Shown: positions 50,334-52,341 of the stretch, piece by piece
Layout of the letters: each line of letters opens with the position of its first letter
How positions within the stretch are numbered: position 1 is the first letter of the stretch
NCBI GenBank assembly: GCA_016617785.1
Contig: JADILM010000005.1
Location: 682,001 to 746,000 of the forward strand
Source of the DNA: Sporobolomyces roseus
Taxonomy: Eukaryota > Basidiomycota > Microbotryomycetes > Sporidiobolales > Sporidiobolaceae
DNA: 64,000 nucleotides
Direction: 5' to 3'
Program-made: the position numbers and the translations under genes
Notes under the pieces: generated by a model
Databases searched by the model: none
Told to the model about the DNA's origin: nothing
The model's input: the letters and a program-made list of their open reading frames with translations, nothing else

Positions 50334-52341
50334 TCAAGCAGCGAGTTTGACTTGAGCGGGACCCATAACTTCTCCTTCGACGATGTCGTAAGAATCAAAG
50401 AGCTTGATCGCTTCTAGTCCAGCTTTGATACCAGATCCGAACATTCCTCCGAATCTGGAGAGAGAGAGAAAAGTTCGAGATCAGCGACAATTCGAAGGGT
50501 GAAGGTGGAGAGTCGTTGCTCACGAAGCTCCCATACGGTTGGCACCGTCGAGTTCTAGGAGTAGTGCGCAATATCGTCAGTAGAGAGGTGTATAGAGAGA
50601 GGAGAGACGAATACGAACCAGAGAGCTCCATTCCTCCTGTGATCAACCCGGGTACGATCTCACGAGTGTTGTTGACGCTGCATGCGAGACGATTTATTTT
50701 AGTCCACTTTTGTAGAGACTAAAAGAAGATCTCGACGTACATGTAATCCTCGGAAGACCTCATATCGAGGCAACGCATGTCACCAAGTTTCTCGACGATA
50801 CCAGCAGCGACGAGACGCTTGACAGAGAAAGCACCGAAGGGACCACTAAGGAGTGAGGTGGGTCAGTCTGAGGTCATTCGAAGAGCAGGAGAAAAGAGAA
50901 GACTCACTCGTGACCAGCAAAAGAAGCGACGACGGGGGCGGTGATCGTTTGAGGGTCCATACACGACTGAAGACCGTGAGCCATAGTGACGAGGGTCCTA
51001 TTCACGCTCGATCTGTGAGTGAGAGTCGAAATAAGAAGGAAAGAGATTGAGAATCACCAGTTTGAAACGACACCGCAAACTCGAAGTCCGTTTCCGAGAG
51101 GATCAGGACGAGTGATCAAATCCTCGCAAGCGGTAGCGTTGTAGACTATCAATCATTTGAGTCAGTGTGAGTCGATGAAGATGAAAGAGAGAGAAAGCTC
51201 ACGCTTGACGTTGGGGAACTTTCGAAACAGGAAAACGAAAAGGAAAGAATCAGCAAGGGGAGAACGAGGGGGGAGTAATCAAGCAAATCTAGTTCCGCCA
51301 GCATTATCTGGATCAACTGATAAACCGTACTCGTCTCATTGTTCAAGAGTCATAGTTCTCAGGAACAAATCGAATCGTATCGAAACGTGAGAAGAATCTG
51401 AACAATCGATCTCGAGGAGTTGGACCTCGAAACAACGATTTCACGTCGACACGATTCGAAAAGCCACCGGTGTTCGCTTGATTCACTTCGAGGCTCAAGT
51501 CTCACTCCAATAGCCATTCAGATTCGGCTAGGAAGATTCGACTTTGAATGAGCTCGAAGGAGAGGGGGGGAAGGGGGAATGAAGAAGGAAGATGTTGCGG
51601 GATTGTCTCGTTCGAGGGAACTAGACTAGTAAGCGATAAAGGTAAAGACGAGCACACCTGGAGGACTTTTGACAAAATCGTCGAAGTGAAAAGAGCGGCA
51701 TGTTTGACGACGACCTATTCTCTAACTGAGTCAGCTTCAATTTGGGAGAGTGACAGACGTGTGGAAGCACTTACAAACTCTCCTTCGTCTTCGAAAGGTA
51801 CTCCCAATTCAGTGAGGAACTTGTCTGAAGGTTTGCGACAAACCATCGCACTCATGAGTTGTCCTCCCAACCAAGCACCTCCTCCTGGAGCTACACCAGC
51901 TTCGAGGATAGTCACCTTCAAGTCGGGACGACGAGAAGCGATAGTGTAGGCGCAAGAGAGTCCAGCAGAACCGCATCCGACTGAGAGCGAAAAAGAGTCA
52001 GGACGGGACTTTCGATGAAGGGGAAGTGTTTTGAACGTACCGATAACGATATCAGAGATCGCAGTGTTGACCAAGTCATCGCCGTACCTCCTAGACATGG
52101 CACGAGCAGTGATGTGTTCCTTGATGGGAGCGAATTTGTAGTTTCCATCGTAATCTTCCCTACCTCCCGAGACTTCTACATCTTCAGTGGAAGCGATCGA
52201 TTCTGCTTTCTTGATTGAAGAAGGAGGAGAGATGGGAGCTACTTCATTCGAGTTGGCGAGTTTCAAGTTGGAAGTTGCTCCAGCGACGCGAAGAGATGCG
52301 ATGGAACTCTTGAAGAGGTCTTGGTGAGATGCGGTGGTCAT
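50334..52341 (-). CDS. THI4: Thiamine thiazole synthase Thi4
   Basis: Makes the thiazole half of thiamin from NAD and glycine. The Rossmann motif [15 protein letters not shown] is completed across intron 1; then [61 protein letters not shown] and [20 protein letters not shown] follow in the conserved order. The Cys in SCMDP aligns with yeast Cys205, the residue that donates sulfur, so a single-turnover suicide enzyme is expected. About 350 residues from [10 protein letters not shown]. Most introns are short, but the one after KVLQ is 439 bases (51219..51657) with a non-consensus GTGTGC donor. It is followed by a 16-nt microexon (51203..51218, FPNVK). That long intron holds a TPP aptamer, so splicing is probably regulated by thiamin pyrophosphate. 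Confidence 0.96.
51289..51624 (-). promoter_or_regulatory. TPP riboswitch inside a THI4 coding-region intron
   Basis: On the minus strand, P1 is CTAGTTCC (51617..51624) pairing perfectly with GGAACTAG (51289..51296). P2 is CTCG (51613..51616) with CGAG (51330..51333). The pyrimidine-sensing TGAGA is at 51334..51338. The P4/P5 arm follows, with TTGATC then CCAGATAATGCTGG (51298..51311) and GCG. The family consensus there is GATCTGGATAATGCCAGCG, so the P5 stem is inverted (CUGG/CCAG to CCAG/CUGG) with pairing kept and the AUAAUG loop unchanged. P3 is expanded to about 275 nt. The aptamer begins 33 nt after the 5' splice site and ends about 70 nt before the 3' splice site, which has a CTGAT branch motif and a pyrimidine tract. 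Confidence 0.9.

Follow-up and report, generated by a model that had tools for sequence, protein, structure and literature searches.

A TPP riboswitch as the best reading of a long internal coding intron in THI4 of Sporobolomyces roseus

The thiamine thiazole synthase gene THI4 of Sporobolomyces roseus contains an unusually long third intron, inside the coding region, and the paralogue footprint and genome-wide searches described below support a TPP riboswitch as the best reading of that intron. More specifically, we consider it very likely (a probability of roughly 0.85) that it houses a THI-element-class TPP aptamer with a long, probably forked P3, which would act as a splicing OFF switch, probably through loss of a bridge to the donor. 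The evidence consists of the anatomy of the aptamer, its selective conservation between two gene copies, a low-scoring donor, and the truncated products that follow from intron retention, from micro-exon skipping and from use of nine of ten inner donors. TPP riboswitches are already known in fungal coding introns, and THI4 intron 3 would be a further example, in an uncommon combination of gene and lineage and with a candidate pairing of donor and aptamer that may be unusual.

We analyzed a stretch of 64,000 nucleotides (the window) from contig JADILM010000005.1, in which THI4 lies on the minus strand with its ATG at 52341 and its stop codon ending at 50334. Exon reconstruction yielded an uninterrupted Thi4 protein of 357 residues both for this gene (copy 1) and for a paralogue (copy 2). 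Its best solved relative is CyPBP37 (PDB 3jsk, E 1.1e-112); among the best 120 of 2633 proteins, the nearest named Thi4 proteins are from Sporobolomyces, with identities of 89, 87, 80, 84 and 78%, to which a partial protein from S. roseus adds one of 94%. The interval flagged in the initial annotation coincides exactly with intron 3, which separates KVLQ from FPNVK and has its GT at 51657 and its AG at 51219. This junction peptide, KVLQFPNV(K/R), is unbroken in all six Sporobolomyces proteins compared and in three of four other proteins, the fourth reading KVLRFPNVK. Intron 3 measures 439 nt in both gene copies, against 57-69 nt for the other eight introns of the window copy. The exon that follows it is a micro-exon, placed between the riboswitch intron and an intron of 57 nt.

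50334..52341, minus strand: THI4 (thiamine thiazole synthase), 10 exons, 357 aa, from exon reconstruction
51219..51657, minus strand: THI4 intron 3, putative riboswitch host, 439 nt, donor GTGTGC, acceptor CGAAAG, from exon reconstruction
51203..51218, minus strand: micro-exon 4 (FPNVK), 16 nt, from exon reconstruction and the peptide in relatives

Within this intron the outline of a TPP aptamer, as proposed in the initial annotation, was confirmed: P1, P2, UGAGA, P4, and P5 with its AUAAUG loop and GCG could all be located. The 8-bp P1 described there is present as eight Watson-Crick pairs and extends to 11 pairs with one G.U. P5 had been called inverted relative to the consensus; its pairing is indeed kept, but the inversion was overstated, as CCAG/CUGG differs from the ccGG/CCgg of the model by a paired change at one position. 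The elements are as follows, from the 5' side of the intron onwards.

51473..51483, minus strand: P1 5' strand, AAUCAAGCGAA, pairs with 51287..51277, identical in the paralogue
51468..51471, minus strand: P2 5' strand, ACCG, pairs with 51327..51324
51442..51459, minus strand: P3a 5' arm, UCGAAUCGUGUCGACGUG, pairs with 51389..51370 in the MFE structure of both copies, no mismatches to the paralogue
51390..51441, minus strand: P3a apical part, variable, with 12 mismatches plus 2 gaps over 54 columns of the paralogue comparison
51370..51389, minus strand: P3a 3' arm, CACGUUUCGAUACGAUUCGA, from folding
51339..51368, minus strand: P3b hairpin UUGUUC...GAACAA, containing a second box, CUGAGA; formed in the MFE of copy 1 but not in that of copy 2, and formed in both copies when the fold is constrained
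51334..51338, minus strand: UGAGA, thiamin-pyrimidine recognition box in its best register, from its spacing to P2' and P4 and from the RF00059 register
51324..51327, minus strand: P2 3' strand, CGGU, followed by J2/4 UUAUC
51296..51315, minus strand: P4/P5 core, UGAUCCAGAUAAUGCUGGCG (P5 CCAG/CUGG, L5 AUAAUG, GCG); zero-mismatch matches in the genome limited to this site and the paralogue
51291..51294, minus strand: P4 3' strand, AACU, with the 5' strand AGUU at 51318..51315; from the model geometry (CG, one base, P4')
51277..51287, minus strand: P1 3' strand, UUUGCUUGAUU, partner of 51473..51483
51249..51253, minus strand: candidate branch site CUGAU, from its position and its CTRAY-type motif, invariant between paralogues

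CTRAY-type sequences are branch-site motifs. The two J4/5 guanines lie 18 bases apart; this spacing, the UAAU loop and the GCG of P5 are TPP features named in excerpts of PMC5882874. The P4 geometry of the TPP class is likewise present (AGUU-GAU ... CG-G-AACU), and the alignment made by RF00059 itself deletes four P4' positions. UGAGA occurs three times in the region: as CUGAGA starting at 51362, as AUGAGA starting at 51339, and a third time at 51504. The boxes at 51361 and 51338 lie 23 nt apart near the core, that of CUGAGA inside P3b. Spacing and the RF00059 register favour the second of these, at 51338, and the box at 51361 leaves the register slightly open. The favoured box reads AUGAGAC, flanked by A and C where the published flanks are C and U: CUGAGA is named as a conserved box in a passage of PMC4260697, and GAGAU as conserved in one of PMC5882874.

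When the 207-nt aptamer of copy 1 was folded in isolation, the MFE structure (-71.2) contained a 10-bp P1, P2, the long P3a, P3b beside UGAGA, P4 and P5, and the model with all 11 P1 pairs enforced lay 0.5 kcal/mol above it. For copy 2, P1, P3a, P4 and P5 were present in the MFE structure, P2 and P3b were absent, and the model lay 0.5 above. By themselves, P1 and P2 carry little weight and do only marginally better than shuffled sequences: 77 of 2000 shuffles formed an 11-bp P1, and 118 of 2000 combined a P1 of 10 bp or more with a correctly placed P2. Both helices (11 and 4 pairs) are identical in the two copies, so no covariation is visible in them.

The element falls outside RF00059 by the cut-off of Rfam, and we place it in the wider TPP aptamer class on other features. 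The covariance model scored 17.1 bits on intron 3 (E 3.9) against a gathering threshold of 54.3 bits, and 18.0 bits on the paralogous intron, also below gathering. By the letter of the initial annotation, which had named the lack of a hit above that threshold as refuting a TPP riboswitch, this outcome would be a refutation. Taken by itself the 17.1-bit match would be nothing: scanning 2.4 kb around THI4 with all of Rfam, up to E 10, gave four sub-threshold matches, of which RF00059 was one. At gathering, no RF00059 match was found in the window, and none at E<=0.001 in the 22.4-Mb genome; with E<=10, where 49 of 1012 candidates were scored, there were three genome-wide, one in a permease-like intron (31.6 bits) and one in each of the two THI4 introns. 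According to passages of PMC11683625, RF00059 often misses the full fungal aptamer if P3 exceeds about 60 nt, and fungal P3 elements average about 150 nt. The long P3 found here, with 129 nt between P2 and UGAGA, would on that account explain the low score. Standard covariance-model cut-offs miss such elements.

Pattern searches indicated that the P4/P5 core occurs more often than by chance. A strict P4/P5 pattern, TGATCNNGNTAATNCNNGCG, had two exact matches in the genome, both in intron 3 of the THI4 paralogues, where 0.17 would be expected at the base composition of the window. With one mismatch allowed, there were eight matches in total, compared with one for a reversed control pattern, and the six one-mismatch matches included the permease-like aptamer. 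A looser pattern, TGATNNNNNTAATNNNNNGCG, gave three matches that were discarded by eye, as P5 was unpaired; its spacing is one base too long, so that the THI4 core itself escapes it and its result speaks neither for nor against the reading.

The permease-like match is a further TPP aptamer, at G000:C8:431804-431893 on the minus strand (loci L010 and L018), with its 31.6 bits below gathering. It follows, at a distance of about 285 nt, a donor close to the beginning of its gene, which, judged by eye from its reading frames, looks like an amino-acid permease gene. The aptamer has UGCUC where UGAUC is usual. Its P5, CACG/CGTG, differs from the CCAG/CTGG of THI4 at two positions on both sides with pairing kept, and the longest donor-side helix found in this intron is 6 bp. 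Near an NMT1/THI5-type gene (G000:C12:133483-134092, L019), no match to a P4/P5-type expression was found in 5 kb; shared-element control of both pathway branches was thus not found in that 5 kb, and the pyrimidine branch may be controlled otherwise.

To separate aptamer strands from drift, two diverged paralogues provide a natural footprint. The second THI4 gene (L002) lies about 12 kb from the first, inverted, just beyond the window, as part of a 3.9-kb inverted duplication with 89% identity (window 48790-52680 and C5:746210-750126), and the two Thi4 proteins share all but 3 of their 357 residues. As a measure of drift, the eight short introns, with 6 nt trimmed from each end, differ at 91 of 390 aligned bases (23%) and in a further 22 gap columns. 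Intron 3 alternates between invariant and diverged blocks. Donor positions +1..+17 have 0/17 mismatches, and the 163 columns from there to P1 have 24 mismatches plus 10 gaps. The block that begins with P1 and ends with the 5' arm of P3a is free of mismatches over 42 columns, the P3a tip has 12 with 2 gap columns in 54, and the block from the P3a 3' arm through P1' has a single one in 113. The 31 columns from P1' to the branch site are identical, and the last part of the intron has 5 mismatches and 4 gap columns in 27. Over the aptamer strands as a whole, 1 of 155 columns differs; at the short-intron rate, at most one mismatch would have a probability of about 6e-17, a figure to be read with the caution that the blocks were picked with the structure already in mind and that the comparison covers two paralogues from a single species. 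Selection on an aptamer would nevertheless be expected to leave just such a picture, with invariant arms around a P3 tip that has diverged. Identity among the short introns is patchy, from 51% to 92% per column, with introns 6 and 9 at 89-92%, and because divergence is patchy, gene conversion could have raised identity locally.

The duplication lies among other repeats. A repeat of about 400 bases is present in four copies within about 66 kb, at 77-88% identity, with one copy at each far end of the THI4 duplication, and C5:750952-751246, past the second THI4 copy, matches window 54680-54973 as a direct repeat of 296 bases (93%).

2118-2548, 15717-16122 and 48790-49202 of the window, and C5:749727-750146: copies of the repeat of about 400 bases

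Intron 3 has a weak donor, GTGTGC: it scores 3.7 bits, compared with 6.9-10.7 bits for the 16 other donors of both copies, on which the scores were trained. Inner donors at 51265 (4.0) and 51330 (3.7) equal the real donor or slightly exceed it. Retention of intron 3 yields proteins of 239 and 235 aa, as opposed to 357, and skipping of the micro-exon truncates Thi4 to 197 aa in both copies. When the five best-scoring inner donors of each copy were tried, truncation followed in four of five (copy 1) and in five of five (copy 2); the exception, at 51621 in copy 1, gives a near-normal protein of 369 aa.

51500..51505, minus strand: candidate internal donor GUGAGA, in both paralogues, with low scores of 0.3 and 2.6; its use leads to a truncated protein

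Two donor-proximal stretches are complementary to strands of the aptamer and are candidates for long-range pairing.

51645..51656, minus strand: candidate alpha1, donor-proximal, UGUGCUCGUCUU, 12 bp complementary to GAGACGAGUACG at 51337..51326
51617..51627, minus strand: candidate alpha2, AGUCUAGUUCC, complementary to GGAACUAGAUU at 51296..51286, 11 bp here and 8 bp in the paralogue

In a contiguous-helix test, alpha1 reached -16.4 kcal/mol in both paralogues, a value met by 4 and 4 of 1000 shuffles for copy 1, by 3 and 9 of 1000 for copy 2, and by 6 of 2130 window 60-mers. Among the eight control introns of the window copy, one, intron 8, pairs better with the aptamer (-18.7). The first bases of this intron (window 50618-50555) could form 13 bp with the aptamer strand of alpha1, and intron 8 of the paralogue, by eye, differs at that stretch; its pairing is probably chance, and it limits the weight of alpha1. 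The 8-mer of alpha2 has 0 mismatches inside a diverged stretch. A P1 formed by CUAGUUCC/GGAACUAG was rejected, as it is disrupted in the paralogue and incompatible with P4, and this pairing was retained as alpha2. With RNAduplex, alpha1 was unexceptional (matched by 1743-1883 of 2000 shuffles), and alpha2 was matched by 144 of 2000 shuffles for copy 1 and by 893 of 2000 for copy 2. The pairing between donor and aptamer thus stands out only in the contiguous-helix test, where one control intron is better.

Folding the segment from exon 3 to exon 4 without ligand gave alpha1 a probability of 0.82 in copy 1 and 0.13 in copy 2, alpha2 0.00 in both, P1 and P2 0.00, and P4 and P5 0.06-0.17. In these folds the formation of the aptamer costs 11.4 and 8.5 kcal/mol, which, as modelled, would be a lot for ligand binding to pay. 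Aptamer formation also raises the accessibility of the donor: in copy 1 the unpaired probability of +1..+13 goes from 0.06 to 0.65, in copy 2 from 0.30 to 0.44. Taken alone, this would make TPP an activator, which we judge unlikely for a biosynthesis gene. We prefer a bridging role, reasoning that alpha1 from +6 on (8 bp) could coexist with U1. As alpha1 and alpha2 cross, the two could not form together without a pseudoknot.

In the mechanism that we propose, TPP binding, the direction of the switch and the bridging step are inferred. At low TPP, the aptamer strands would be free, and the weak donor at 51657 would be joined to the acceptor at 51219, probably helped by pairing of the donor-proximal alpha1 and/or alpha2 with these strands. 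Such a bridge would loop out about 300 nt and shorten the path along the chain from donor to branch site to roughly 65-90 nt, which is closer to the length of the 57-69-nt introns of this gene. Once TPP is bound, UGAGA/P2' and P4'/P1' would be locked in the aptamer and the bridge lost, so that the intron would be kept or an inner donor used, with truncated Thi4 as the result. A more particular proposal, that the ligand-contacting strand GAGACGAGUACG (most of UGAGA plus P2') pairs over 12 bp with the intron's own weak 5' splice site, we regard as rather unlikely. If it were true, TPP and the donor would compete directly, within the coding region of a biosynthesis gene, for one strand about 320 nt away, and this duplex of splice site and ligand pocket would represent a variation on the P1'/alpha and P4-P5/donor schemes already known.

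The closest competitor to donor bridging is simple occlusion, in which the TPP-bound aptamer hinders use of the branch site or acceptor and the intron is retained, with no donor bridge. It shares the OFF-switch reading and differs in platform only, so its odds overlap with those of our explanation, and we rate it as a serious contender at somewhat less than even odds. P1' ends about 23 nt before the branch site, aptamer and branch site are both invariant between the paralogues, and the DUR31 coding-intron reporter described in a passage of PMC5997356 was mainly unspliced with thiamin and gave little indication that a second donor was controlled. Occlusion accounts less readily for the 17 invariant donor-proximal nucleotides, which are followed by 157 that diverge and so point to a role on the donor side, and the accessibility of the branch site hardly shifts from one modelled state to the other (0.42 to 0.37 and 0.30 to 0.36).

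Two further explanations dispense with TPP altogether. The intron could hold a degenerate former riboswitch that no longer binds TPP and whose conserved strands only fold a long intron for splicing, as might be suggested by the low RF00059 score, by the cost of the aptamer state in the whole-segment fold, and by the DUR31 reporter, in which, according to the same part of PMC5997356, the riboswitch was needed for splicing itself. We consider this improbable: both copies have preserved UGAGA, GCG, UAAU and the 18-base G-G spacing intact and without any change, even as their P3 tips have drifted. Less probable still, to the point of being very hard to credit, is a chance resemblance in a long, structured intron: P1 and P2 alone do barely beat shuffles, but the core is rare genome-wide, lies in a thiamine biosynthesis gene and is conserved between paralogues.

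The reading of intron 3 as an internal coding-intron TPP riboswitch thus gains support from this analysis; the novelty implied by the initial annotation does not, as coding-intron cases have already been published. Passages of PMC5997356 describe them in NCU01977 and DUR31, and also report TPP riboswitches in THI4 introns of some budding yeasts. In the classification excerpted from PMC5882874, Type I comprises 5' UTR introns, Type II long coding introns with long-distance pairing, and Type III internal introns of 200-400 nt, which that excerpt gives as predicted, with no experimental observation yet; Type IV is also listed. Our element resembles Type II as exemplified by N. crassa NCU01977 (excerpts of PMC5882874 and PMC5997356) in that the aptamer lies near the 3' end of a long coding intron, a candidate element near the first donor is complementary to aptamer strands, and other splicing outcomes lead to premature stops. 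It differs in that THI4 is not a transporter gene, in an intron length of 439 nt versus 602 nt (PMC5997356, in part), and in that the candidate alphas pair with UGAGA/P2' or P4'/P1', without the RGCGGYRRY consensus given in the excerpt of PMC5882874. With Type III (as excerpted from PMC5882874) and Candida DUR31 (as described in part of PMC5997356) it shares an internal coding intron, truncation upon retention and, on the 5' side of the aptamer, a possible inner donor (GUGAGA at 51505). Its 439 nt are, however, just above the 200-400-nt range of Type III in that excerpt, and unlike the transporter gene DUR31, as described in that part of PMC5997356, the host is a THI4 intron for which a long-range candidate exists. 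N. crassa THI4 and NMT1 (Type I) have the same ligand class and splicing control, and THI4 encodes the same enzyme; those elements lie in 5' leader introns and act via uORFs, whereas THI4 intron 3 splits coding sequence.

The nearest precedent by lineage is the THI4 riboswitch of R. mucilaginosa, which a passage of PMC11683625 presents as an exception among the species examined in its phylum. It is likened to ours by description only: the order (Sporidiobolales) and the gene are the same, and a long P3 is, by the same paper, usual in fungi. Our literature search returned no riboswitch report for Sporobolomyces, nor for Tremellomycetes and thiamine; for Rhodotorula and thiamine riboswitches, PMC11683625 alone concerned fungal riboswitches, judged by the listing. 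In R. toruloides, of the same order, a 1.5-kb THI4 promoter alone was constitutive toward thiamine, as was the THI5 promoter, according to passages of PMC5073140. A constitutive THI4 promoter fits control inside the gene, if the THI4 of R. toruloides has a riboswitch.

The list of genes interpreted as controlled by TPP through splicing is extended here by one for thiamine biosynthesis from a basidiomycete. If the element works as proposed, thiamine could serve to control genes through splicing in red yeasts, among which a THI4 promoter alone, in the part of PMC5073140 that describes it, ignored thiamine.
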